IMG/VR virus record: IMGVR_UViG_3300038301_000548
Coordinates: 124,001-188,000 of that record
Strand: one strand, 5' to 3'
Source: a virus
Length of the DNA stretch: 64,000 nt
A program made the position numbers and the translations under genes. The notes below the pieces were generated by a model. It ran no database searches. It saw only the letters and a list, made by a program, of their open reading frames with translations, and was not told where the DNA came from. This document shows, piece after piece, positions 1 to 63,540 of this stretch. Within the stretch, counting starts at the first letter, position 1; the number at the start of each line of letters is the position of its first letter.

Positions 1-3000
1 GAGCTTCTATAAATTTTTTGCATGCCTTGCTGTGTTCTATCAAAAAAGTCTAAAGAGAAGTCGGGAAATCGCCCTGTCCACTCTCTCTGTCTGTCAGCTC
101 CTGGAGCAGCAGCAGCAGCAAGGATCTTGTTATCGAGAGAAGTTATTCTGTGCGGGTTATCATCATCATCTGCAGATAAGGCCTGAACGAAGCCGTTGTG
201 AAGGTTGGTAAAGTCAGTCATGATATCCCTTATAGCTACATTAAGTTTGCCTATGTTTGACTGTATCGCGCCTATGCGGGAAAGTCCTTGTGTAGTTATG
301 GATGTTGACTTCTTAAGGTCTTCTAAGTATTCTGGAAGGACCACTTTGCAATAGACTTCTGAAGGTCTTGATTGGCCAGAGATATACACTCGTGTCACCA
401 ATATTCTTAGGGGTATAGGATATATGTTTGGAGGTAATAATTTATGTTTTTTAGCTCTGAGATCCAGGCGGCCGTTGGCCCGGGCTTCAAAGAACTCGGG
501 TACCTCATGCAGAATCTTACATGTTTCACCCCGGGGGTCTTCTGAATCTAGGCGCGCGGCGCCTAGATTCATGGGGTCCCCACCGCCGATTGGTTGAAAA
601 CTCCAAGATTCATTCTGGGCTCTCCTGAGCCAGTGGAGCATACTAGCTTCGACGTTAGTACGCTGAAAAGGACAATCTTCTTCTCTATAGTTCTCATTAG
701 CTGTCTCTGTTCCGCGGGCGTTTGAGTTCGCTGACGGGTTCGCTATAAGCCATGGCGCGGTAAGAGCTATATTCGACAATTTATCGATGCCCATGGGCCG
801 TATAATGTACGGACCCAAGGGCAAGCCGTCTATGTCTAGACGATTGTCGGGGACCGGGCGCTGGTCGGATCTTCTCATAAAGAATGTGCGGCTGTTCTGA
901 ACCAGGGCCGGGTCGAGCATTGTGTTGTTATCATTCTCACCTGTTCCGATTAGATGGCCATCGGAGTCATACCCGTCTACCTCGTCATACAGTAGCTGCA
1001 ATGTGTTTTCGTGGAAATCCCCAAAAAGATTAGAAGTCTCTTGTTCCGGGATAAAATGCAACACTGCTGGGTCAAATGTATCCCCTATTGTGAATGAGCC
1101 ATGGAGGCCTGCCAAGATAGACGCGTCACCAGAGAATTCGTAAACCGTCTCGACCCAATGTTCTTCTCTTGTTGCTTGATCCCGGGGACTCATCAAGGGC
1201 GTCTCAAAGGCCGCGCGGGCGGTGTCAAAACTTTGCTCGTCTTCAAACTCTCCTAGCTTGTTTTCAAAAATTCTTTGCCGGTGGGGCGCGGCGGGATGGC
1301 GCATATGAACAAGCTGGTCTCGTGTTAAGTCAAAAATGTTATTATCATCGACAGGGAGTGTTCTTCCGAGAAGATCTCTTTGGACCCCTAAGGTCGCAGC
1401 TTGACTATCTTTGCCAATTGGAAAAGTCAAACCGTGCGGGATCCCATAAGCTCTCAGCATTGAGCCGTTAATTTGGTCGACGCGGGCTTGCCCGTTAGCA
1501 AACTTAATGTTCAACTCGTCTATGTTGGTGAATTCAATATTCTCATAATGCTGAGTCGAGGGTCCGGATTGAAAATCATGTTTAAGGTTTTCAGATATAT
1601 ACTCAAGATATTCTTTTGAATTCTCAGAGGCTTCTAGCAGAATATCAGACATTTTGGAAGATTGTTCAAGCGTTGTAAATGCGCCCGGGTCGCCGATATA
1701 CCTTAATCCTAATTCATGGTACATCTTCATAAGATCTTTGCCATCTTGAGCTATTATATAATAAGAGTCTTCAGAGTCGCCGTGAGTTATTGAGTTGGAG
1801 CATGCGCTTCGCAAGGCCGCGGCTGGCTGGTCGCCTGGAAAGCTTATGCTGCCATTCAACATCTCATGGAATTCAGAAAGAGAAGTATCACCCAGTGCGC
1901 CTTCAAAGAAGCTGCCAAAGCCGTGGCTTATAAAATCTTTGTTAAATTTTACGATTCTTCTAGTCTTCTTGATAAATCTGGTAGGGGTTCTATCTATTGC
2001 ATAAGGATACCCGTCGACTGTTTGGACGTCTGTATTGCGTTGGCGGCCGCCTGTGGCACTATCAGGATCCTCATCATAGTCATAAAGGCCCTGCATGTGT
2101 TTTATATATTTATCCAAGTCATCTTCATTCAAGGCACCGTTTATTGCTCCCAAGAAGTCGTCGATATGAAAGATCTCTTCTCTTTTATCTATCGTGCTAT
2201 CTGCGTCATATTCTTCAACAGAAGAACCCTGAGCACTGCCTGGGATAGCTGGTGTTTCTTTAAAATCATAATTTTCAATATTTGGATGTGAAACATTTTG
2301 CAAGCGACCTAAAGAGTCTTTAATATTTAATTTTTGTGGAATCCTGTTTTCTACATCGGTAAATAATTCCGGGTTGTCATCAATATTAGCTGTAGTGAAG
2401 GCTTCTATTATCTCCCTAGTCGGAAGAATCAAAGTCTCAAGAGCAGCTAGCGGACCAGTAACCCTTAGACCGTGTTCAATATGGAAAAACGGATCATTAC
2501 CATTTACATGATTAAGTGCTGTGCGTACCGAACCAAGACCAGAGTTGCTGTTTTCGATTTCTGGGTTTATTATTACATTATTTGTATCCCTTAAGGGGTG
2601 CTGCCACCAAAAATACTCAGGGCGCTCGAAATTTCTAAGATCTTCGGGCGGCTCTACAATCACTTCTCCGACGTCATTAATAAAAACGCCGGCTTCGATA
2701 TCAACTGGGTCCCCGTCGATCGATATCATAGTCCTGGAAACTTCTGATTGCGGTATAAAATAGCTCGTAAACCATTTATAGTAATCTAGATTCGGATTAT
2801 TGTTATATACATTTTTAGATAAGTCTTGCATTTTCATTGATTGCTGCTGGACTAGTCTTTTTAACGCGATATATGGGGCTTGTATACCGGTAATTCTTGA
2901 AATTATAGGCTTCCACTCATCCCTAATCGACGGGATTCTTTCTATTTCGTGCTTTATGAATTCGTAAATAAACTCTTTCATCAAGGGTTCATCATAAACA

Positions 3001-6000
3001 CCTTCAAAATCCCAAACAGAATATGCTAGGGATCCCTTCAATAACAACTCCACCAAACAAATTCTAACAAACCCAATCATGCAAACGTTCTGTATTGCTT
3101 TCTCTATCGGGCCGAGGTCGTCATAATCGACATTTTCAAATGAATTCTCTGGCCTAGACATTTCTGCTCTGAGCTGACGGCCAATTTCATCCGTTATGAG
3201 TTTTTCGAATGACAAGGTTCCAAGCTGAGATACACTATATCTGTTTTTATAACAATCCTCTATCTCGTTGTAAAAAACCTGGCCAGCGACTCGTCGGCGG
3301 AATGAGTCAAAATAACCATCCTCATCGTAAACTCTTGAATTTCTTAGCGAATAAAAAACTTGCTCAAAGATACCTTCTAAAAATTCTGGGTATTGTTTAT
3401 GATATAAATTATCTCTGATTTCCCCGTCAATTGTTAATTTATCAAACTCTTCCTGTATTTCATCGGCGCGCTCGGCGGCGGGCAGCTCATACCTTTGCGC
3501 CATTGAAGTTAGAGATTTCAAATGCATTCTTGCAAATATTTCTCTCCTAGTATAAACCCCGGGAGGGATATTTTGATAGTTAGTAAATACGTGAGTGGCC
3601 ACTGTGCTGCCACGATCGTGTGAAGCTTCAATATAAGTCACTTGCCTGTCCGAGTCGGCCCTGACAGTTATCAGATTGGCGTCCTGGATCTCATTATCTG
3701 GACCCACTATTGAATCACAAAACCGGAAAACTTTTGGATTTTCTGCACTTGTATCGCGGAATAGGTTGTCGCCATATAATGTTATAGTATATGGATCGTA
3801 TTTCTTTTGATCCAGTGAGTTCTCTGGGAGAGCGCTCGTTTTTGATTTAAATTCATACAAAGAGATCGACGGACCCGGGACGCCGAGCGCGCTCTTGAAA
3901 TCTATCGTTAACTTTCTAACGTCGGGCCCATCGATGAATCGGTTGTTTTGATCGACAGCCGGTGCATCAAAATAAATCCCCTGTGTTGGATGAGTTAGCG
4001 GATTTAGACCTCTCGCGGCGATGTCACGGAGTTCGGCGGAAGTCTCCTTACTAGCGCTTAATACATCTTTTATTATTTCAAGGTGCGATTCATGTGGTAT
4101 AGGTGTTGAAACATTTGGCAAGTATGTCGACAAGATACCTTGCAACTCCATAAGCCTATCTTGCAGCACCTGTTGTAAATAACTGACTTGGGATCCTGGT
4201 TCCAGCTCTTCTGCGCTTTCGGCGTTCGCGAGGAGCTTATAATTATTGACAAAGTGATAGGGTACACCAGACTCATATACCAAGTAATTGCTGCCAAAAT
4301 TAAACAAACCTAGGTTTGCCTGGTCTGCGTGCGCGGTGGAGTCGATTTGCGCAAGGGTGTCCTCAGCTTGTTCACCTGACGTGATATACTTGTTCGTAAT
4401 ATTGTTTGATTCATCTTTTTCAAAAAAACTATTGCGGCTAAAACCTATTGGCCTTGGATACAGACGTGTCTCTTTGGAATTACCGGCGCGAGACCTCTCA
4501 TCGTAGGTTGCTTCGCGGTAGGGGGCTAGTGCTTCTTCTGCTGGCCAGAGTTGATGCTGTGGTTTTGCCGAAGCTGGGACATTATGGATTGGATGAGCCG
4601 CATTAGCCGCATTTTGATATTTAAAAAGTTTAAGGATTCTCTTATCGCTGGTCTCATATTTTTTTGTCTCGTATATTTGGTGTAAAATATGGATTTGCTT
4701 TTGCAAAGAATCGATCGAATTAGCTCCGCCGGATGCTTCGTCTCTAATAACTTGAAGCAGTCTAAAATTCTCTAGTATGGTTTCTACTGTTATGTTAGCT
4801 GCATCGTCGAAGTCTTCGTCTTCTGGTGTTGGTAATTTAAACCCATCTAGATAATAAGCTGGACCATATGCACTCAATGAGGAAACATAAGACATCTTTG
4901 TTGGCTCGAACATGTCCTTTATTGATTTAATTGCTTGGTCATTTAGATTCTTTGGTAACTGATTTACTATCGCGTCAGGGTTTGACATGTCTAGTAACGG
5001 AGGGATAATTGCATTCAGGCCCTGTTCCGATAGCAGTTCAAAGGCGCGAGCCTGAGACATCAATTGATCTTTAGCTTCGTCTAGAACCCGGTTGATTTCT
5101 TCTTCAGATGCGTCGTTGGCTAGCAAGCTTCTTCTTAGGTCAGATATGGCAGTCGCAGTGTCTTCGCATGTTGTTGCTGTTGTTAGCCAGTCAGTACCTG
5201 ACAGTGCTTCGCAAAAGCCATCCGGCATGAACGTGCCGATATGGTCATATAGTTGCATAATAGATTCTTCATCGTCTAATTGATCCAAACCCATTGATCT
5301 AGCTATCGAGGTTAACATTGCTATTGTAGCTGGATCTAATGGGTCACCTTGTAGTAAACGACACAATTCTCGGTTTGTTAAAACTACTCCTGATCGTTCT
5401 ATAAAGTCGGGCGCCAAATCTGCGTTCTTCTGGTCTAGGCCTAAATCAACGAGGCCTCGAGCCATAGCATTCTGGACTACGGAGGTTGAAGAACTAGCTT
5501 CCCCATATAATTGATCTCTTAAGATCTCTTCACACCATGGTATTCTTAAGAAATCTATGATTGTTCTTGCAAGAGTACATAAGAATCGTCCAATGATCTT
5601 ACCTAGCTTATCCCAAAGAAATTTCCAGGCTCCGGCCCACCATCTAAATATGCTAAAATCTGGCCAATCCGGATAACTAAAGTTAGGTATGCTGAGATTG
5701 AACGCTGGGATCTTTAGACACTTTAAGAAATCACATAAGAGAGCCCCGGGAGATACTCTGTCAATAAATTCTGAAAAGACCTTTGGGACAGTACATGCAT
5801 TACCGAGCATTTTTAAATGCTCGTCTTGACCAAAGACGCTATCTAAATTTGTAAAATCTTTTGATGTGGTTCTTTCATCATACCACTCTTTGAAAGGCGC
5901 CTTGATGTTTTGATCGGTCCAAATCTGCAAGGCGTCATATGTCTTTGCGATTCCATCAAGACCTGGAGTGTACCTCTTTAAATATGCTAGGCCCTTCTTT

Positions 6001-8840
6001 CCCAAGTCGAGGTCACTGCAAAGCTCAGAGTTTGAAAGATCGAAGAAATTTAACCATGAGCCCATGGCCAAGCCACCTGACATACGATACAGTTGAGAGA
6101 GATAGATTGACGTCATAGGCCTTGTTAGTGCAGGCGCCTGAGCTTTAAGGTCACTATACTTTCCTTTGATGCCGCGGCCCTTTCGACTTTCAAAAATTAT
6201 ATTTTTGCCGGCTTGGATCGATTCAATCTGGCCAGTATTCGCTGAAAATATAATTTTAATGTTGTTGGGGTATTTCCATCTCCAGTTTGATGCTGCGCCG
6301 TCAGCGTCGGCGCCGCCCTGAATTGCATCAAAACCACTAAGCTCCTGCGCATATGGAATCTCGGACACCAGGCCTGCTAGTGTGTCATCACCAAACTCAA
6401 AATCTGAACTTTGAGGCAGTTTTTTCTTGATATAATTTTTTAACTGCAGCAGACCATCTTCTAACTTTGTCGCCTCTAAGTTGCCATCGTAATTGCTGGA
6501 AAATCTTATTTTGTCTTCTTTGCACGAAGCGAAAGCTTCTCTTATATCTTTGGCCGAGATATCGACGCGATCTTTTATCTCGCGATAAGTCATATAAATT
6601 TCAACGTAACGTCGATTGCCAAATTTCTTGTTATATGCCCATTCACTAAACGCGTCTAATGGCGTCTTAAGTAGACTGGTTCCTACTTTTAACACACTAT
6701 TGCTAAACTCGTCTTGTGAGCCAGAAAAGTCTCCTAGGTTTATTGGGCCCAGGTTTACATTTGCGTTACCAAAAACGCCCAGATCAACGCTGGTATTTGC
6801 AGTTTCAGCACGGTTTTGGAGTTCGGCAGCTGCAGTCTGTGACTCTCTTAAAGCCCGGGCAATTTCCCTTCTTCTTTTAGCGGCTAAAGCCCTGTATTCT
6901 TCATACCTCCTCTCTTGCTGGTCTTCTGTAAGAGGTGCATCGTTGCATGAGTCAGTTGGATTAGATGGCTCTTGTATTACCGGTGCTAAGGCACCTTGGC
7001 TATTTTGGCTTTCCGAAATTCTTAATTGGCTTTCTAGGATTCCATTATCTTCTGTGATCTGTGCCAGCTTCGCTCTATTTATAAGGAATTTAGCCCTATA
7101 TTTGTCGCCTGGGCGGAGGGACGGAAACCTAAATTCTACAAACTTTATTAATGGCTCTGCTGTGTTTATACTCAGCATGAGGCCTCGGGAGTCGGGATCA
7201 GCGCTTTCGTATACTTCTATGTCAGTATAAGGTTGTATAGACTGGATTGTCTGCACGAGGTCTTCACTTAAATCTTGATATCCCGGAGACTCAAACTGCT
7301 CTAAAAAATTGTCTAGAAAAACATCAGGGGCTAGGAGCCATTCTCCGGATGATACATTCAGCTTTGGGAATATCTGTGATATTCTTTCTTTTGCGGGGGA
7401 TCCCGTAGGGCTATTGAGCCGGCTGGCTCCGTCTTGGCCTTGGATGGTATCATATTCACTCCCCACAACGGTGAATGCGTCTTGGAAAGATGCTGATTTT
7501 GGATCTAATTTAAATAATATTGGTTTGTTTAGATGAACAAGAAGACTATATAAAGCTTTCTGCTCCAACTCTCTTATCGCTTGTTGGTACTCTACTTTCT
7601 CATCCAGAGTAGCTGTTGGTGCTGGTCTGAATGGAGGCAAATTGCTTAAAGTAAAATCAGTCTTATAGAAGTACCCCATAACGGTGTTACTAATAACAAA
7701 TGGGTCTGGGTCTGTTAAGGGGTCTGGTTCACCAATTCGAGATACCGCATCTGCATAATCGCCTGAGGACATAGTTGAAACGCTTTCTGATTTTGGAAAA
7801 TTATTTGAGACCTCTAGGAAAGCAGAATACAAAACACTCTTCCTACTCCTCTCTATAAGTTCATACCTTAAAGCAGCGAAATGCCTGTGGGCCAAGTCCC
7901 TGTATTGATCGTTGATATTATTACCGTCTAGACCCAGATCGACCGGCTGCAGAGGGTTTAATACACTTAAAGATTCACTTGGGCGAGCGGTGGCGTTATA
8001 TTTCTCTAGCGAGGCTATGAAATTCGAACCATCAGGGCCGAGATAATCTTTAAAGCCGGCGGGGCCGGCGCCCTGATCATATGAATAATTTGGGTGGTTT
8101 GGTATGCCTGCGAGGCCTTGCTTATTGTTAATTCCTTGCGACGTTGCTAGATCTTGAGAAAGGGTGCCCTCTACCAAAGACTGGTGCAAAGTGCGAGGAA
8201 TAATATCGTGAGCAAGAGTTTCGTTTTGGAAAACATTCGGGTCATGGTAGTATGTTGTCGCTCCGACTCTTGTTCTTGGGCGCCAGCCATGGAGCACTGC
8301 TAAGGTGGCCTCACCCAGAGTACCAAACTCAGATTGGAAAAAAGTGTCTATAGCCTCAAGTTGATCTTGCGCTAATTGTAGTATTTGGCTCTCAGCTCTT
8401 CTTTCCCGCTCATCGTCAGTTAGGTAACCGTCGTCTTCGACGTCTTTGTTGGAGCTGAAAACTTTGTTATAAACTTTTGAAGGTATTCCATATTTTGAAA
8501 ATAAGTAGCTTAGTATGTAAAATTGGTTATCTAATTGGAATTTTGTAAGGTAGGCTTCCATTGTGGAATCAAATGTTGCCGCCTCTCTCAATGAGACTTC
8601 CTTCCCAGTCATACAGTCCAGCCAATGATTCTTGTTGTCGAACACATCGGGATTCGCTTCTTCGGGAGCAAGAAGCTCTACAGATCCGAGCGCTTTACGA
8701 ACTACTAGAATGTCGCGACCTTGGTCACCGGGGCGACGTGGACCAAAACTTATTTTTTCTGATTGTTCAGTATTAGAGCTTGGAGTCTCTAACTCTAATT
8801 TGTATGGCCTGGTTGCGCTATATCTTCTATTATTGCTCAT
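1..8840 (-). CDS. Giant virion-type protein, C-terminus outside window
   Basis: The frame opening at the ATG at 8840 (MSNNRRYSATRPYKLE) shows no in-frame stop down to base 1, giving at least 2,946 residues. I checked that the reading phase is the same near 6065 and near 23. The sequence is mostly soluble and alpha/beta-like, with one hydrophobic amphipathic patch (KIIGRFLCTLARTIIDFL). I recognise no enzyme motif. It lies 20 bp downstream of three further virion-like genes and the late sigma gene, so a baseplate, tail-fibre or other large structural role is inferred from context and size only. The family is not recognised. Confidence 0.85.
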   Translation of the reverse strand, partial: MSNNRRYSATRPYKLELETPSSNTEQSEKISFGPRRPGDQGRDILVVRKALGSVELLAPEEANPDVFDNKNHWLDCMTGKEVSLREAATFDSTMEAYLTKFQLDNQFYILSYLFSKYGIPSKVYNKVFSSNKDVEDDGYLTDDERERRAESQILQLAQDQLEAIDTFFQSEFGTLGEATLAVLHGWRPRTRVGATTYYHDPNVFQNETLAHDIIPRTLHQSLVEGTLSQDLATSQGINNKQGLAGIPNHPNYSYDQGAGPAGFKDYLGPDGSNFIASLEKYNATARPSESLSVLNPLQPVDLGLDGNNINDQYRDLAHRHFAALRYELIERSRKSVLYSAFLEVSNNFPKSESVSTMSSGDYADAVSRIGEPDPLTDPDPFVISNTVMGYFYKTDFTLSNLPPFRPAPTATLDEKVEYQQAIRELEQKALYSLLVHLNKPILFKLDPKSASFQDAFTVVGSEYDTIQGQDGASRLNSPTGSPAKERISQIFPKLNVSSGEWLLAPDVFLDNFLEQFESPGYQDLSEDLVQTIQSIQPYTDIEVYESADPDSRGLMLSINTAEPLIKFVEFRFPSLRPGDKYRAKFLINRAKLAQITEDNGILESQLRISESQNSQGALAPVIQEPSNPTDSCNDAPLTEDQQERRYEEYRALAAKRRREIARALRESQTAAAELQNRAETANTSVDLGVFGNANVNLGPINLGDFSGSQDEFSNSVLKVGTSLLKTPLDAFSEWAYNKKFGNRRYVEIYMTYREIKDRVDISAKDIREAFASCKEDKIRFSSNYDGNLEATKLEDGLLQLKNYIKKKLPQSSDFEFGDDTLAGLVSEIPYAQELSGFDAIQGGADADGAASNWRWKYPNNIKIIFSANTGQIESIQAGKNIIFESRKGRGIKGKYSDLKAQAPALTRPMTSIYLSQLYRMSGGLAMGSWLNFFDLSNSELCSDLDLGKKGLAYLKRYTPGLDGIAKTYDALQIWTDQNIKAPFKEWYDERTTSKDFTNLDSVFGQDEHLKMLGNACTVPKVFSEFIDRVSPGALLCDFLKCLKIPAFNLSIPNFSYPDWPDFSIFRWWAGAWKFLWDKLGKIIGRFLCTLARTIIDFLRIPWCEEILRDQLYGEASSSTSVVQNAMARGLVDLGLDQKNADLAPDFIERSGVVLTNRELCRLLQGDPLDPATIAMLTSIARSMGLDQLDDEESIMQLYDHIGTFMPDGFCEALSGTDWLTTATTCEDTATAISDLRRSLLANDASEEEINRVLDEAKDQLMSQARAFELLSEQGLNAIIPPLLDMSNPDAIVNQLPKNLNDQAIKSIKDMFEPTKMSYVSSLSAYGPAYYLDGFKLPTPEDEDFDDAANITVETILENFRLLQVIRDEASGGANSIDSLQKQIHILHQIYETKKYETSDKRILKLFKYQNAANAAHPIHNVPASAKPQHQLWPAEEALAPYREATYDERSRAGNSKETRLYPRPIGFSRNSFFEKDESNNITNKYITSGEQAEDTLAQIDSTAHADQANLGLFNFGSNYLVYESGVPYHFVNNYKLLANAESAEELEPGSQVSYLQQVLQDRLMELQGILSTYLPNVSTPIPHESHLEIIKDVLSASKETSAELRDIAARGLNPLTHPTQGIYFDAPAVDQNNRFIDGPDVRKLTIDFKSALGVPGPSISLYEFKSKTSALPENSLDQKKYDPYTITLYGDNLFRDTSAENPKVFRFCDSIVGPDNEIQDANLITVRADSDRQVTYIEASHDRGSTVATHVFTNYQNIPPGVYTRREIFARMHLKSLTSMAQRYELPAAERADEIQEEFDKLTIDGEIRDNLYHKQYPEFLEGIFEQVFYSLRNSRVYDEDGYFDSFRRRVAGQVFYNEIEDCYKNRYSVSQLGTLSFEKLITDEIGRQLRAEMSRPENSFENVDYDDLGPIEKAIQNVCMIGFVRICLVELLLKGSLAYSVWDFEGVYDEPLMKEFIYEFIKHEIERIPSIRDEWKPIISRITGIQAPYIALKRLVQQQSMKMQDLSKNVYNNNPNLDYYKWFTSYFIPQSEVSRTMISIDGDPVDIEAGVFINDVGEVIVEPPEDLRNFERPEYFWWQHPLRDTNNVIINPEIENSNSGLGSVRTALNHVNGNDPFFHIEHGLRVTGPLAALETLILPTREIIEAFTTANIDDNPELFTDVENRIPQKLNIKDSLGRLQNVSHPNIENYDFKETPAIPGSAQGSSVEEYDADSTIDKREEIFHIDDFLGAINGALNEDDLDKYIKHMQGLYDYDEDPDSATGGRQRNTDVQTVDGYPYAIDRTPTRFIKKTRRIVKFNKDFISHGFGSFFEGALGDTSLSEFHEMLNGSISFPGDQPAAALRSACSNSITHGDSEDSYYIIAQDGKDLMKMYHELGLRYIGDPGAFTTLEQSSKMSDILLEASENSKEYLEYISENLKHDFQSGPSTQHYENIEFTNIDELNIKFANGQARVDQINGSMLRAYGIPHGLTFPIGKDSQAATLGVQRDLLGRTLPVDDNNIFDLTRDQLVHMRHPAAPHRQRIFENKLGEFEDEQSFDTARAAFETPLMSPRDQATREEHWVETVYEFSGDASILAGLHGSFTIGDTFDPAVLHFIPEQETSNLFGDFHENTLQLLYDEVDGYDSDGHLIGTGENDNNTMLDPALVQNSRTFFMRRSDQRPVPDNRLDIDGLPLGPYIIRPMGIDKLSNIALTAPWLIANPSANSNARGTETANENYREEDCPFQRTNVEASMLHWLRRAQNESWSFQPIGGGDPMNLGAARLDSEDPRGETCKILHEVPEFFEARANGRLDLRAKKHKLLPPNIYPIPLRILVTRVYISGQSRPSEVYCKVVLPEYLEDLKKSTSITTQGLSRIGAIQSNIGKLNVAIRDIMTDFTNLHNGFVQALSADDDDNPHRITSLDNKILAAAAAPGADRQREWTGRFPDFSLDFFDRTQQGMQKIYRS

Positions 8841-26748: not shown

Positions 26749-28053
26749 TTATAACTTTAAAGCGGCAATTGTTGCGACTTTTGACCTTTCTCCTTTCAAT
26801 AATGTTATGTGGCCAGTTATGCTTTCATCTTTAAGGCGTTCTACGACGTATGAGAGGCCATTGTTGGTTGCATCTATATACACGTTGTCAATCTGTTCAA
26901 TGTCCCCTGTAAGGACGATCTTAGTGCCTTCTCCGACGCGCGTTAAAACAGTCTTGATCTCGTGCTGTGTCATGTTTTGCACTTCATCGATGACAATGAA
27001 TGCGTTTGATATTGATCTTCCGCGGATGAATGTCATTGCTTCTATTTCTATTTGGCCTTTTTCTTGATACATGTCTAGGGTCATTCTATCATCTCCCATA
27101 AGAAATTGCAAGTTATCTTGTATGGGTGCTAGCCATGGTAGCATTTTTTCCTCTAGAGTACCTGGTAAGAAGCCAATATCTTTGCCCACTGGTTCAACGG
27201 GTTTGGTAACTACTATCTTCTTGTAGACCGGTTTTCCTCCGAGTGTCTGCTCCAAGCCTGCAGCGAGGGCCAGCAGGGTTTTACCTGAGCCGGCTTTACC
27301 AATAAGACTGACTACTGGTATCTGTGGATCCATTAAAAGATTTAAGGCAAACTGTTGCTCTTTGTTCCGGGGTTTTGTTTCCCATGCGGTCGACTTTAAA
27401 ACTTTTCTTAATGGTTCATTTTTACTAACAAACTTGGCTAGGGCTGACTTCTTAGGGTTTGAATTAGAAATCATCATGATGAATTGATGCGGACAGAAGG
27501 CATAACTCTCATCTAGATGAACGGGCTTATCTTCATAAAAGTTTTCTATGATCTGATCGTCGACCAACACTTCACACAATCCAGAATAAAGATCATCTGA
27601 TTTGGCAACAACTTTTTCAACCTGAAAATCCTCTGTGAGTATTCCGAGAGCATCACACTTGACTCTCATATTAATATCTCTAGATACTACAACAACTTTT
27701 CGGGATTTGTTTTCTTCCATTTCCGAAAGTGCTGTTGCTATAATTTGGTTGTCTGAATCTTCTAAATCTAGATCGTCTGGAAGACAAAGCGGATTATAAC
27801 TCCTAACTTTAATTATGCCTTTCCCCTTCTCTAGGCGGACTCCTCTTGCGAGATTTCCCTTACTTCGAAGTTGGTCCAATTTGCGAATAGTCGATCTGGC
27901 TTGCATTCCGACTGTGTCTTGCCTTTTTTTATGTTTGTCGATTTCGTCTAAAACTTTTAAAGGTATTAAGATATCGTTATTTGTAAATGATGTTATAGAT
28001 TCTGCGTCTGTAAGATATACGTTAGTATCTAAGACGTAAGTTTTTTTTGCCAA
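26749..28053 (-). CDS. phoH: PhoH-like ATPase with N-terminal PIN domain
   Basis: 434 residues, the PhoH2/YlaK architecture. PIN nuclease domain at 1-150 (YVLDTNVYL, ... VVSRDINMRVK), then P-loop ATPase with Walker A GKAGSGKTLLALAAG (near 250) and Walker B FIVIDEVQNMTQHE (near 353). PIN-PhoH proteins are toxin-antitoxin-derived RNA helicase/nucleases; phoH is a common marine phage gene whose benefit is unresolved. Complete, with ATG at 28053. Confidence 0.93.
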   Translation of the reverse strand: MAKKTYVLDTNVYLTDAESITSFTNNDILIPLKVLDEIDKHKKRQDTVGMQARSTIRKLDQLRSKGNLARGVRLEKGKGIIKVRSYNPLCLPDDLDLEDSDNQIIATALSEMEENKSRKVVVVSRDINMRVKCDALGILTEDFQVEKVVAKSDDLYSGLCEVLVDDQIIENFYEDKPVHLDESYAFCPHQFIMMISNSNPKKSALAKFVSKNEPLRKVLKSTAWETKPRNKEQQFALNLLMDPQIPVVSLIGKAGSGKTLLALAAGLEQTLGGKPVYKKIVVTKPVEPVGKDIGFLPGTLEEKMLPWLAPIQDNLQFLMGDDRMTLDMYQEKGQIEIEAMTFIRGRSISNAFIVIDEVQNMTQHEIKTVLTRVGEGTKIVLTGDIEQIDNVYIDATNNGLSYVVERLKDESITGHITLLKGERSKVATIAALKL

Positions 28054-28096
28054 GATTGTTTTCCTTAATAGTGATAATATCCTATCATATTAAATA

Positions 28097-28276
28097 TTAT
28101 TTATTAAATGTTTTTGACCACGAGGTGGGCGCTTTTTTATAAAGCACCCGGTTATTATACTGAATAGTGGGTGATTGTGGCATTGATATATATAAATCAG
28201 CGGTTGCGGTTTCCGATACCGGTGGCAAAAAAGAAAATATGATAGTCGTCATAATCTCCATTAGATAATAATTCAT
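28097..28276 (-). CDS. Small exported peptide
   Basis: 59 residues from the ATG at 28276, chosen because AGGAG lies 6-7 nt upstream (a longer frame starts at 28303). Hydrophobic N-terminus MNYYLMEIMTTIIFSFLPPVSETATA looks like a signal peptide with an Ala-x-Ala-like end; the mature part is about 33 polar residues (SPTIQYNNRVLYKK). Faces the serine-protease gene across a 57-bp divergent gap. Role unknown. Confidence 0.6.
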   Translation of the reverse strand: MNYYLMEIMTTIIFSFLPPVSETATADLYISMPQSPTIQYNNRVLYKKAPTSWSKTFNK

Positions 28277-28333
28277 GAGATCTCCTATAGCTTTTGTTAA
28301 CAAAAAAGCTTTTTTATAGTATATTTATATTAT
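28277..28333. promoter_or_regulatory. Divergent promoter gap with hairpin
   Basis: The only head-to-head gap in the window. It holds an imperfect hairpin AGCTTTTGTTAACAAAAAAG (28290 onward, ending in a T run) and very AT-rich TATA-like strings (TATATTTATATTATATG) before the plus-strand gene. The string TATTTATA reads TATAAATA on the minus strand, the T4 late core, and could serve the small gene to the left. Confidence 0.4.
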
Positions 28334-29098
28334 ATGCAGACAAAAATACTATTTTTATTGACTATTTCTCTCTTTTTAGCGCCGGCATGCACTTTATCTA
28401 AAAATAATGCATATATAAAGCCCCCAATTGACAACTTTGTAAAGGTGTTCAAAGAAGCAAAAATAAAAAAATGTAATAGAAAAACAAAGGTTTGCGAAGA
28501 GAAAACCTTCTACTCCACTGGTAGTGGGTTAATCATAGATCTAATTATGGGAGAGACTATTGTCTTGTCCGCGGGTCATGTTTGTTCTTCTGATTTTAAG
28601 TTTCCAGATGATAAAAAGTTTTCGTTTAGTCACCAGGAGATAATTCTCGGCTTAGACAGTAAGGGTCTTTTTCACCCGGCACATGTTATAATATCTGAAC
28701 AACAGTCAGCTAAAGATGGCACTGCAGACCTATGCGCTCTTTTTATCCCCACTATAGACTATAAGAATATCAAAACAAGAGTAAGGTTTGATCCAAAAAC
28801 CCCAAGGGCCGGCGATGAAGTGTACTATTTGGGTGCACCGTTTGGTGTTTTTCACCCCCCGACAGTTCCGATATTTAAAGGAATCTATAGTGGAGTAGTC
28901 TCCACAACCTCAGCGCTGGCGACTTTTCCAGTGGCGCCTGGATCCAGTGGAGGTGTAGTCTTAAACCTCTCAAATAAAATAGTGGGAGTCGTGTATGCTG
29001 TGCATCCTGGGTTAAATCAAATCTCTATGATCACTAACCATCAGAAGACAAGAGAGTTTCTTATTAAGGTTAAGAACCGCTTTAGAGTTAAAAAGTGA
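28334..29098 (+). CDS. Secreted trypsin-like serine protease, lipoprotein
   Basis: 254 residues; the only convincing plus-strand gene. The signal peptide ends in a lipobox (LAPAC, Cys19). Chymotrypsin-fold triad: His82 in LSAGHVCSS, Asp132 in GTADLCALF, Ser205 in APGSSGGVV. Four extra Cys may form disulfides. It would act in the periplasm or at the outer face of the cell after lipidation. Opposite orientation suggests independent expression, perhaps during early infection or as a moron gene. Confidence 0.88.
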   Translation: MQTKILFLLTISLFLAPACTLSKNNAYIKPPIDNFVKVFKEAKIKKCNRKTKVCEEKTFYSTGSGLIIDLIMGETIVLSAGHVCSSDFKFPDDKKFSFSHQEIILGLDSKGLFHPAHVIISEQQSAKDGTADLCALFIPTIDYKNIKTRVRFDPKTPRAGDEVYYLGAPFGVFHPPTVPIFKGIYSGVVSTTSALATFPVAPGSSGGVVLNLSNKIVGVVYAVHPGLNQISMITNHQKTREFLIKVKNRFRVKK

Positions 29099-59977: not shown

Positions 59978-59982
59978 AACCG

Positions 59983-60414
59983 TTAATATCTTAACGCCAA
60001 ATAGGAAACAATTCGGCCGGCCCCGATCCGAACTGCTTTGTTTTTATTGTCTGCCCCGACGTGCAGCATTAATGGAACTGTCTTAATGTTCATAATCGCT
60101 GCAACCTCTTGTGCCCACTGTTCATCCATATTGATCCAATGCACTGTGATGTTGAATTTGGCTTGATCAATTGCTGATCTCACGAGGTCGCAACCCCCAC
60201 ACCAATCAGCACCAAACACAACAATCACTTCTTTCCCTCTATTTAACAATGCCCGCAGTTCTGCATTCCCAATATATCGCGAATCTCTACGATACTCCTC
60301 CACTCCATTATATCGCACGACCAATGAAGCGCTTCGATCATTATTATACTCCCAACTGGTACCGCATGATAGTAGCAATATTGCGCTTATAACAGCGCCA
60401 ATAAGTTTTTTCAT
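59983..60414 (-). CDS. Thioredoxin-like lipoprotein
   Basis: 143 residues. Signal peptide with lipobox (ILLLSC, Cys17). Thioredoxin fold with W71-C72-G-G-C75 and cis-Pro114 (KTVPLML). A lipidated periplasmic thiol-disulfide protein, of a type rare in phages; it could reduce or scramble disulfides of envelope proteins or assist the exported proteins of this phage. AGGAGG-like TAGGAGGATT lies 8 nt before the ATG. Confidence 0.85.
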   Translation of the reverse strand: MKKLIGAVISAILLLSCGTSWEYNNDRSASLVVRYNGVEEYRRDSRYIGNAELRALLNRGKEVIVVFGADWCGGCDLVRSAIDQAKFNITVHWINMDEQWAQEVAAIMNIKTVPLMLHVGADNKNKAVRIGAGRIVSYLALRY

Positions 60415-60875
60415 ATATAATCCTCCTAGGTGTTATAATAACTAGGTCGAAAATCTCCGAAATTTTCTGTGTGTGGCGATAACGGGTGTATTAAGCGCGT
60501 GTAGGTGCGTTGCCTACATAGACTTACATTCGGCTACATGTAGGTGCGGGGGAGGGGGGGTAGCACCCCCTACTACATTATCTTACATGTAAGTTTTTTG
60601 TTTACATTTAATTACTTTTAATTACATTCTCTCACAATGTAGGTTGATGTAGGATAGTGTAGATAAAAAAATACCTTTGGTTACATGTAGGGAAGGGTAA
60701 CCAAAGGTAAGACATGTGCGTGGGGTGCACACAGTGTAGGTATGTGTAAGCAGGAACACACATAGCAGCAGGATGTAGTCAAAGGTAGGGCAAGGCACAC
60801 ACCCGATGACATTGTAGGTGCATGTAGGACAAGGTAAGCGATAACCTACCTCATCCTACATGTGGGATGTTTTAT
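60415..60875. repeat. Non-coding block with CTACATGTAG-type palindromes (left cluster)
   Basis: No gene. Palindromes CTACATGTAG (60534-60543) and CTTACATGTAAG (60582-60593), further ACATGT cores at about 60683, 60712 and 60857, and many TGTAGG half-sites, mostly pointing the same way. A perfect 12-bp inverted repeat ACCTTTGGTTAC/GTAACCAAAGGT (60673-60684/60697-60708) encloses one core. A GGGGG-TAGCA-CCCCC hairpin is near 60558. Candidate binding array for a replication, partition or regulatory protein. Confidence 0.75.
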
Positions 60876-61118
60876 TTATTTCTGCCCGTGAGCATGCTCC
60901 GAGAGTATTTCCGCGAGTGCCGTTTGCAGGTCGACCAAAGCGTCTCGGTCAAGCTTGATTTCTGCGCTCTTGCGCGCCCCGTTGACGGTGCGAAAGCCGA
61001 CGCCGGCGCTCACGCCGTTGACGATGGCCTGGGAGAGCTGTACGCCGCTCTTGCCGTCCTCCGTGGTGATGGAGAAAGCGAGGTTAATGATGTTTGATTG
61101 TTGTCGTCGTAAAGCCAT
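60876..61118 (-). CDS. Small early-type protein, paralogue A (80 aa)
   Basis: MALRRQQSNIINLAFSITTED and so on. It shares the pattern QSNIINLAFxIT...GVxLxQAxVNGxSAGxxxRTxNGAxKSAxIKLD with the gene at 62383-62637, so the two are clear paralogues. No known family. GC-richer than neighbours. Driven by promoter P1; AAAGGG upstream of the ATG. Confidence 0.8.
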   Translation of the reverse strand: MALRRQQSNIINLAFSITTEDGKSGVQLSQAIVNGVSAGVGFRTVNGARKSAEIKLDRDALVDLQTALAEILSEHAHGQK

Positions 61119-61199
61119 TTTAATGACCCTTTCATTTTCCCGCTACAATGCGGGGTTGTTTATTTCGAGGCTAGGAACCTTCCCTAACCTTCTATATAT

Positions 61200-61227
61200 A
61201 TTATACTCTTTTTATTGAAAAAATCAA
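61200..61227 (-). promoter_or_regulatory. Sigma70-type promoter P1
   Basis: Minus strand TTGATT, 16-bp spacer, TATAAT, then ATATATAG. Weaker -35 and shorter spacer than P2-P4. Drives the 60876-61118 gene. Confidence 0.7.
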
Positions 61228-61398
61228 GTTTATTTAAAAAACCTAATGATTTCAAGCACTTAACTTTTCGACCCTTTTGGGTCTTTGTGCCCATGAGATG
61301 CCCGTAAAGCCAAAAAAGGCCATTCTGAGAAACCCAATGATTTCAACTACTTAGTTTAACTTGCTCCGGGTGAAAACAAAACTAATTGCCTACACCCG

Positions 61399-61630
61399 CC
61401 TACATGTAGGATAAATGGGATTAAACCTCGACCACCTTATCCTACATGTAGGCAAACTACCCCGATATCCTACCCTCGGCATGCCTCAACACACAGCATC
61501 CTACATGTGTGTGCCTGCCGACATGTGGTCTCGAGTAGCTATAGCACCTACATCATCAACGGTACCGTGGCCACTTCCACCTACATGTCGGTCTTGCGCC
61601 TACATCCGACTACGTGTCGCACATGTAGGT
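61399..61630. repeat. CCTACATGTAGG palindrome array (right cluster)
   Basis: Two perfect 12-bp palindromes CCTACATGTAGG (61399-61410, 61441-61452) and further ACATGT cores at about 61503, 61520, 61582 and 61621, with CCTACA half-sites, mostly in the opposite orientation to the left cluster. The two clusters flank the 60876 gene and P1. Confidence 0.8.
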
Positions 61631-61669
61631 CTTTTGCCTACCCTCCGCATACTCTCGAAGGCCTCGACT

Positions 61670-61988
61670 GTTAATAAATTAACACTAGCCAAGGAAAAAA
61701 CATTGGTTCCAAGCATCGATAATCATTGGTGTTTCTCGAATTATTCCGGCGTTGATATATTTTGCAATATCAAGTATATATCCACAACTTATCATTATCA
61801 TATTTTCTCTCTGCAATGCGTTAATTTATTAACGATTGACTATTTTGTCGTATATGTATTAAATCACCACCCACTTTCTACCACTTCCTAACAAAGAATA
61901 ACACTTTTTTGCTGTGTTTAGTCTGTTATAGTGGTATAGGTGGGGGTAACCTATTTCTTTTCTATTTAGAAAGGGTTAATTTATTAAC
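61670..61988. repeat. Three GTTAATTTATTAAC boxes at about 150-bp spacing
   Basis: Near-palindromic 14-mers: 61670-61683 (reads GTTAATAAATTAAC on plus), 61820-61833 and 61975-61988 (GTTAATTTATTAAC). Intervals 150 and 155 bp. The third is extended to GGGTTAAT...ATTAACCC. Probably binding sites of a dimeric regulator or initiator. Confidence 0.75.
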
Positions 61989-62382: not shown

Positions 62383-62637
62383 TTATCCCTCCGCCGATGC
62401 TAGGACTTCATTGACAGCATCGAGAAGGTCTCGCAAGCTCTGTTCATCGAGCTTGATTGCTGCCGATTTGGTCGCACCGTTTAGGGTGCGAAGGCTGCAA
62501 CCGGCAGACTGGCCGTTTACAACAGCCTGATTTAATTCGACGCCCTGTGTCTTCATCGGGCGGCCTTTGGTGTCCTTTGCTGGCTGGTTTGTGATAGTGA
62601 ATGCGAGGTTGATGATGTTGCTTTGTACGCGCTTCAT
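62383..62637 (-). CDS. Small early-type protein, paralogue B (84 aa)
   Basis: Start at MKRVQSNIINLAFTITNQ (62637) because AAAGGAC precedes it; a longer frame exists upstream but runs through promoter P2. Paralogue of the 60876-61118 gene with an insertion (AKDTKGRPMKTQ). First gene of a three-gene coupled operon under P2. Confidence 0.8.
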   Translation of the reverse strand: MKRVQSNIINLAFTITNQPAKDTKGRPMKTQGVELNQAVVNGQSAGCSLRTLNGATKSAAIKLDEQSLRDLLDAVNEVLASAEG

Positions 62638-62999: not shown

Positions 63000-63033
63000 A
63001 ATCAATGCCTTTCTCGATTGTTTGTATATATAC

Positions 63034-63062
63034 ATTATAGCCCATTAGGGACCAAATGTCAA
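63034..63062 (-). promoter_or_regulatory. Sigma70-type promoter P3
   Basis: Consensus TTGACA, 17-bp spacer, TATAAT on the minus strand. The spacer contains CCC-TAAT-GGG. Leader GTATATATACAAACAATCGA is almost the same as at P4. Confidence 0.9.
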
Positions 63063-63097: not shown

Positions 63098-63298
63098 CTA
63101 AAACATCATAACAGATCGAGGTCGGATAAAGAACTCGAATGGACCTACATGTAAGACACTGTAGGGCGATGTAGTATCCTCGTTAATCACTAGGGCGAAT
63201 CGCTTCAAGCTGAAGCCCCACCCTTGATTGGTGCTGGTGCTTACTACATAGGGAAATGTTAGCATCAATTGCCCTTTCAATGTTGTCCACAACTTCAT
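63098..63298 (-). CDS. Small early-type protein (66 aa)
   Basis: MKLWTTLKGQLMLTFPYVVS with a beta-rich body (WGFSLKRFALVINEDTTSPY). The ATG overlaps the stop of the upstream gene (TAATG), so coupled. A CTACATGTAGG-like site lies inside it (about 63143-63152). Unknown family. Confidence 0.65.
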   Translation of the reverse strand: MKLWTTLKGQLMLTFPYVVSTSTNQGWGFSLKRFALVINEDTTSPYSVLHVGPFEFFIRPRSVMMF

Positions 63299-63477: not shown

Positions 63478-63511
63478 TGGCTCTTGGCCTTTCTCGATTG
63501 TCTGTATATAC

Positions 63512-63540
63512 ATTATAGTCTATTTATAGTCTCTTGTCAA
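63512..63540 (-). promoter_or_regulatory. Sigma70-type promoter P4
   Basis: Consensus TTGACA, 17-bp spacer, TATAAT on the minus strand; the spacer includes TATAAATA, the T4 late core, perhaps by chance. No CRP-like box here. Confidence 0.9.

Follow-up and report, generated by a model that had tools for sequence, protein, structure and literature searches.

The DNA analysed here, which we call the window, is a 64,000-nt stretch comprising bases 124001–188000 of a 190,698-bp IMG/VR virus record (label G000), from an uncultured, probably marine phage. Genes run leftward almost throughout G000 and the gene set is T4-like, with terminase, gp32 and UvsX. The replication genes that it encodes (PolIII-alpha, a DnaB-like helicase, RecA/UvsX-like and gp32-like proteins and a 5′-3′ exonuclease) all lie more than 50 kb from the arrays described below, even with the record closed as a circle, and the terminase gene is ∼90–100 kb away from the locus. 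PhoH is also encoded. The immediate neighbours of the arrays are genes for a small protein of 80 aa and a thioredoxin-like protein. We found no isolate relative: the region and its core have no match in phage records, TerL reaches at most 45% identity, to a Flavobacterium phage, and the sole match among GTDB genomes is a partial PhoH at 27%.

The left part of the locus is a non-coding core of ∼110 bp (60450–60562, plus strand) that could be aligned in 20 phage contigs. It lies directly upstream of the leftward genes starting at 60414 and adjoins the first of two arrays, whose first sites overlap it. The core contains Box I, AAAATCTCCGAAATTTTC (60450–60467), a GTGTAT/AAGCGCG block between Box I and Box IV, Box IV itself, GACTTACATTCGGCTAC (60521–60537), and a purine tract, GGGGGAGGGGGGG (60548–60560); its overall make-up is AAATCT..AAATTT, a GCG/GTGTAT/TTAGCC block, GACTTACATTCGG and a GGGGGAGGGGGG tract. 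Within the G000 record, matching at up to two mismatches finds each of Box I and Box IV only once. Six of the 23 contigs collected with the core pattern (L110, L113, L123–L126) were discarded as chance matches. We also discarded a stable hairpin in the core, for which the arms look complementary by eye but the fold z-scores (−0.85 to +0.36) show no significant excess of stability. In one contig (G024, L153) the core seems, by eye, to have its G-tract turned round, so that it reads as a C-tract alongside the other boxes.

To describe the arrays we listed half-sites of the forms [TG]GTAGG, TGTAAG and TGTGGG on both strands, a dyad being CCTACA|TGTAGG. Array 1 (60500–60866) holds 17 half-sites and 15 dyads, among them the palindromes CTACATGTAG at 60534 and CTTACATGTAAG at 60582. 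Array 2 (61389–61642) holds 12 half-sites and 10 dyads, with two perfect copies of CCTACATGTAGG at 61399 and 61441, and to its right lies a stretch that is AT-rich by eye. The distances between half-sites fall into three series: those in the same orientation peak at 10, 19–20, 29, 39, 49, 59 and 68 bp, pairs facing away from each other at 6, 16 and 26 bp, and facing pairs at 13 and 23 bp. All three series are explained if the CCTACA|TGTAGG dyads sit on a single lattice with a period of 9.75 bp, on which half-sites of either orientation fall. Perfect palindromes, with a centre spacing of 6 bp, account for 15 pairs in arrays of this kind, which we call type A. The best dyad period is 9.5–9.8 bp in all six of the genomes analysed (G000, G002, G012, G029, G036 and G037), and in each of them none of 300 random placements was phased as well as the observed sites. 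For G000 this comparison took in both arrays, whose dyads share the one 9.75-bp lattice.

A sequence-only reading of this DNA had reported dense palindromes in 60415–61660, and the clustering is confirmed: 11 of the 24 ACATGT cores in the window lie there, where the density in the remainder of the window would predict ∼0.26. The two perfect 12-mers and the copy of CTTACATGTAAG given above are positioned as that reading had them. It had also called for a count over the complete genome, and in the whole record ACATGTAGG has 11 exact sites, all 11 of them within 2.7 kb (record 184533–187155). For CTACATGTAG the whole record holds three exact sites and four with one mismatch, and apart from 63145 every one of them is in this region; the reversed control has two at one mismatch. 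At two mismatches the enrichment disappears, with 27 sites in the window against an expected 21 ± 5. Loose matching to CTACATGTAG alone would therefore miss the feature, because the signal is clustering combined with phasing. The near-copies noted at 63.1 kb turn out to form a mini-array on the plus strand (63144–63175), made of CCTACATGTAAG, TGTAGG and TGTAG, with half-sites at 63150, 63160 and 63170 in exact 10-bp steps. The description of the two clusters as oppositely oriented holds as a tendency in G000, where array 1 has 12 forward and 5 reverse half-sites and array 2 has 3 and 9, but the bias is lost in G002 and G012. Scanning IMG/VR for double CTACATGTAG sites was unproductive: it returned 22 contigs, mostly by chance, and the core was in none of the loci fetched. 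Two or more CTACATGTAG pairs inside 50 bp are present in L006, L010, L024 and L027, viral contigs that lack the core.

Between the arrays lies the flanked gene that had been claimed, on the minus strand at 60876–61118, together with its promoter-like element TTGATT-16-TATAAT (61227–61200, minus strand), which we call sigma70-like by its match to the consensus. The gene encodes the 80-aa protein, which has homologues in G002, G012, G018, G036 and G037 and a paralogue at 62383–62637, with identities of 45–73% within the family. AlphaFold2 predicts a beta-beta-beta-beta-alpha arrangement (pLDDT 70.5, pTM 0.38), for which the best PDB folds found by Foldseek include SP_0782, YdbC and PURA, weakly, at E ≥ 0.55. 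The protein is possibly a single-strand DNA-binding protein of PC4/PUR type, a lead drawn from weak similarity between a predicted model and known folds. Inside array 1, at 60672–60709, is a perfect 13-bp hairpin, TACCTTTGGTTAC/GTAACCAAAGGTA, which folds with z = −5.6 and has TTTTTTT after it on the minus strand. At the same place G036 has a T run and a hairpin whose paired letters differ, and G029 has an imperfect hairpin. The G000 hairpin is likely an intrinsic terminator of the 80-aa gene, and being accounted for in this way it was dropped as a candidate special element.

The orientation of the 80-aa gene relative to the core differs between genomes, G000, G036 and G018 being opposite to G002, G012 and G037 (read at 60876–61118 in the window and in L118, L128, L115, L111 and L122). 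We rejected an actively invertible segment: since orientation tracks the sub-groups of the protein, a single ancient inversion is more likely.

The DNA around and to the right of array 2 carries further motif classes. TTGAAATCATTRGG occurs twice on the minus strand (61242–61255 and 61333–61346), and these are its sole copies in the record at up to one mismatch; copies that look similar by eye are found in L101, L102, L103 and L115. The palindrome GTTAATAAATTAAC is found at 61670–61683, 61820–61833 and 61975–61988, with an imperfect version at 59982–59995. The three exact copies are the only ones in the record on either strand, and the record has one single-mismatch look-alike (record 103512). 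Right of the arrays, GTTAATWWATTAAC palindromes are accompanied by a sigma70-type promoter, TTGACT-N15-TATTAA (61836–61862, plus strand), with the operator-like GTTAAT palindrome GTTAATTTATTAAC, one of the GTTAATAAATTAAC copies, just upstream of its −35 element. This pair is conserved: TTGAC(A)-N15–17-TAT(T/A)A has the same form in G000, G002, G018, G036, G037 and the core-only genome G017, and a weaker version is present in G015, also core-only. The promoter points rightward and is thus opposed to the genome, since nearly all G000 genes run leftward; no ORF was seen just downstream of it, and a T-run follows at ∼50 bases.

Relatives were collected in IMG/VR by a PhoH search (63 loci) and through elements of the locus itself: the 80-aa gene recovered G002, G012 and G018, the palindrome G005 and G029, and the core pattern G036 and G037. 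Pairs of arrays stand in the same place in G002, G012, G036 and G037, G029 has array 1 plus a short block far off, and the G005 contig begins inside the locus. The sequence-only reading had looked to conservation in relatives for support, which is borne out for the syntenic place of the arrays and for the core but not for the letters of the arrays, which no longer align. Because the arrays align so poorly between relatives while their period is kept, the geometry outlives the sequence.

Six short contigs, some of them near-copies of each other (L107, L108, L112, L114, L119 and L121), have what we call type B: the same core is followed by two blocks of TGTCAA/TTGACA, and a TGTCAA block takes the place of the operator-like palindrome, abutting the rightward promoter. 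The type B repeats are mostly 11 bp apart, the commonest distance between TGTCA sites (25 pairs), and the fitted period is ∼11.3 bp, less sharp than in type A. Some of them form TTGACATGTCAA, which shares the ACATGT centre of CCTACATGTAGG and differs in its outer letters. A few TGTCAA sites are also present in G018. Finally, of the ∼20 contigs with the core, G015, G017, G027, G032 and G033 are without a TGTAGG array. Judged from these comparisons, the core rather than the palindrome is the general feature of this phage family. Since the core persists where the arrays are absent or changed, the arrays are a lineage-specific layer, accessory or replaceable and able to switch specificity, and the core and promoter would be the constant part.

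How should such a locus be understood? The 9.75-bp phasing of the dyads strongly supports protein-binding arrays, in that dimers bound in tandem, roughly one to each helical turn, would produce just such a lattice. Regular tandem sites of the kind found at iteron-type origins are also provided by this lattice, where one protein would presumably occupy all of them. A phyletic profile drawn up for the binder gave few proteins tied to array-bearing genomes, none resembling a DNA-binding regulator except the 80-aa family, and that family is missing from G029, which does bear an array.

Our preferred reading is that the locus is a replication origin or, more cautiously, a replication-control locus, for which we estimate a probability of roughly 0.48 from sequence comparison. 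The origin fits best because a single-copy core, an opposed operator-promoter and several clustered motif classes come together with a coordinated replacement of motifs. Also in its favour are the exclusive clustering within a 190.7-kb record, the lattice common to six genomes, the syntenic arrays, the conservation of core and promoter, the replication genes in the same genome, the motif swap with a kept centre and the weak PC4/PUR-like fold. Against it, there is no enrichment of DnaA boxes, no recognisable initiator (Rep) gene beside the arrays and no Rep family among the Pfam matches listed, and the replication genes are more than 50 kb distant. GC skew, which had been suggested as a check, does not change sign at the locus, a weak test where nearly all genes lie on one strand. 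Because several genomes keep the core without the arrays, the latter are not strictly required for replication across the family.

As an origin, the locus might work as follows. The CCTACA|TGTAGG dyads would be bound by a dimeric protein, encoded by phage or host. With one dimer to roughly every helical turn, the proteins would line up on nearly the same face of the DNA, and the resulting unbroken filament would wrap or stiffen both arrays. This protein–DNA complex and transcription started at the rightward operator-promoter would jointly open the DNA near the core, the single strand thus exposed may be held by the 80-aa protein, and replication would be primed with the phage DnaB-like helicase, PolIII-alpha polymerase, UvsX/RecA and gp32-like proteins. 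On this view the array would be a module of exchangeable specificity: TGTAGG half-sites give way to TGTCAA, or the array is missing altogether, and the core stays.

Origins of T4-type phages are poorly defined by sequence. The locus may even represent an undescribed type of origin in a large group of uncultured tailed phages, built of a universal core, an opposed operator-promoter and an exchangeable dyad lattice, a tentative proposal that we regard as doubtful. The lattice would then act as an address, written as TGTAGG at 9.75 bp, as TGTCAA at ∼11 bp or not at all, and the exchange of addresses is perhaps driven by origin-targeting satellites or nucleases.

Known systems offer partial parallels. 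In PLE satellites the ori and the DNA-binding domain of the initiator are exchanged as a module; the ori has three ∼30-bp iterons, with which the repA DNA-binding domain co-varies (PMC8263062). The change from CCTACATGTAGG to TTGACATGTCAA resembles this exchange of initiator and iterons (PMC8263062). Both systems have a non-coding region of repeated semi-palindromic sites in which the binding-site module is swapped and the rest kept. Unlike PLE, however, the present locus has two blocks with 25 dyads in all, spaced at 9.75 bp, a separate conserved core and no initiator that we could find. At ParR/parC and omega/parS, proteins form helices on tandem sites with about one dimer per helical turn and the DNA is wrapped (PMC5016525). 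Tandem sites at about one per turn, in blocks beside promoters, are shared with our arrays, but here no motor gene was found, the ∼9.75-bp sites are dyad-symmetric and in both orientations, and a core adjoins them. The ori1/crr of phage P4 likewise has its short sites, in either orientation, divided between two separate blocks and recognized by one initiator; its sites are octamers of the GGTGAACA type for the alpha protein, its blocks are kilobases apart, and we know of no strict lattice or family-wide core described for P4. The pac site of P1, ∼160 bp long and beside a packaging gene, shares with our locus the palindromic clusters in two groups, in that case of hexamers, whereas the arrays here exceed 600 bp and are far from the terminase. 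None of these four systems matches the locus in anatomy.

The main rival to the origin reading is control of transcription. The locus would then consist of the rightward promoter and of an upstream region, core plus arrays, that controls the leftward operon beginning at 60414; a phage regulator coating the arrays would time the switch from early to late genes. In the genomes read, the leftward operon does begin next to the core, the −35 element of the rightward promoter has the operator-like palindrome immediately beside it, and promoters and a terminator stand beside the arrays. However, a promoter element of this kind would be expected at many late operons while the core is single-copy, more than 20 dyads in two blocks ∼0.5 kb apart (∼1.1 kb in G002) seem excessive for one operon, and core-only genomes keep the operon without the arrays. 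Overall we consider a late-operon or early–late switch unlikely, though it is the alternative to be taken most seriously.

A good deal less probable is a role in binding a host response regulator (OmpR/PhoB type), which the phage would use or titrate; type A would then be read by another host regulator. The TGTCA direct repeats of type B at 11-bp steps resemble tandem Pho boxes, the phage carries PhoH, and no phage regulator of the Trans_reg_C type is among the Pfam families listed for the small proteins. Yet Pho-box spacing and letters are confined to type B, the G000 arrays having TGTAGG at 9.75 bp, and we know of no Pho box that matches the TGTAGG motif. OmpR-type proteins bind direct repeats, whereas palindromes are frequent here (the 15 pairs of type A, and TTGACATGTCAA in type B) and both orientations lie on one lattice.

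We think it marginally less probable still that the locus is a packaging (pac/cos) site, where the small terminase subunit would wrap the array and the core would be cut near the G-tract. Clusters of palindromic sites flank the cut at P1 pac, and contig ends are over-represented near the core, with 7 of 18 within 3.5 kb as tallied from coordinates against ∼1 expected (G005, G017, G024, G033, G037, G038 and G039), which keeps this alternative alive. The excess could reflect an assembly break, a genome end or a feature of coverage. Against packaging, the ends lie at differing distances to the left and right of the core, spread over kilobases, much as assembly breaks would, 11 of the 18 contigs run through, the terminase is far off as noted above, and the arrays are lineage-specific.

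Of the three functions offered by the sequence-only reading (iteron-type origin, centromere-like partition site, regulator array), the protein-binding array thus stands through its 9.75-bp phasing and the origin fits best, while the centromere is disfavoured. A partition site of a phage-plasmid, of ParMRC or ParA/RHH type, is very improbable: two iteron blocks around a promoter with ∼10-bp spacing do recall parC/ParR (PMC5016525), but the closest gene does not belong to a par system and the gene content is T4-like. The locus does not look like a member of the partition families, on two counts: a ParA-type ATPase (AAA_31) is absent from the whole record and was detected in 14 of 14 controls, and no centromere-binding (RHH) family is among the Pfam matches listed for 141 small proteins, of which the second list holds the best 25 of 32 families. 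StbA_N (ParM/StbA) had no match in G000, nor in the control genomes.

The single-copy core of ∼20 uncultured phages, combined with an array that changes specificity, makes a concrete candidate for an origin or master switch. The arrays nevertheless keep to roughly one site per helical turn, offering a natural experiment in the co-evolution of a protein with its DNA address code. Should the array prove to be an origin address, exchanging it would parallel the PLE/Odn conflict over origins.

Several features elsewhere in these genomes were also recorded. An open frame of at least 2946 codons (window 3–8840, minus strand) continues past the left end of the window, and more very large late genes lie in adjoining pieces, for example one of 3430 aa at record 104624. 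A 521-aa protein at record 26808–28373 (L129:6808–8373) starts with MTTKLEHGQTLRNKVLDGVNTLADYVAATLGPKGQNVL; from its GroEL-like start it is a putative phage-encoded chaperonin, with IMPDH-like and dUTPase-like neighbours. Many small early genes have a near-identical leader in common, a strong sigma70-like promoter and, behind it, a conserved AACAATCGAGAAAGG stretch (minus strand; for example window 63010–63040 and 63490–63530, L004 4580–4610 and 5200–5240). Small tandem paralogues with MKVGDLV-like starts, VISESR-like ends and head-to-tail overlaps fill L005:11835–15145, and similar runs occur in G029 (L105:13794–15116). Lastly, a UV damage endonuclease (UvdE, E = 5e-61) is encoded in the phage at L005:17552–18478.
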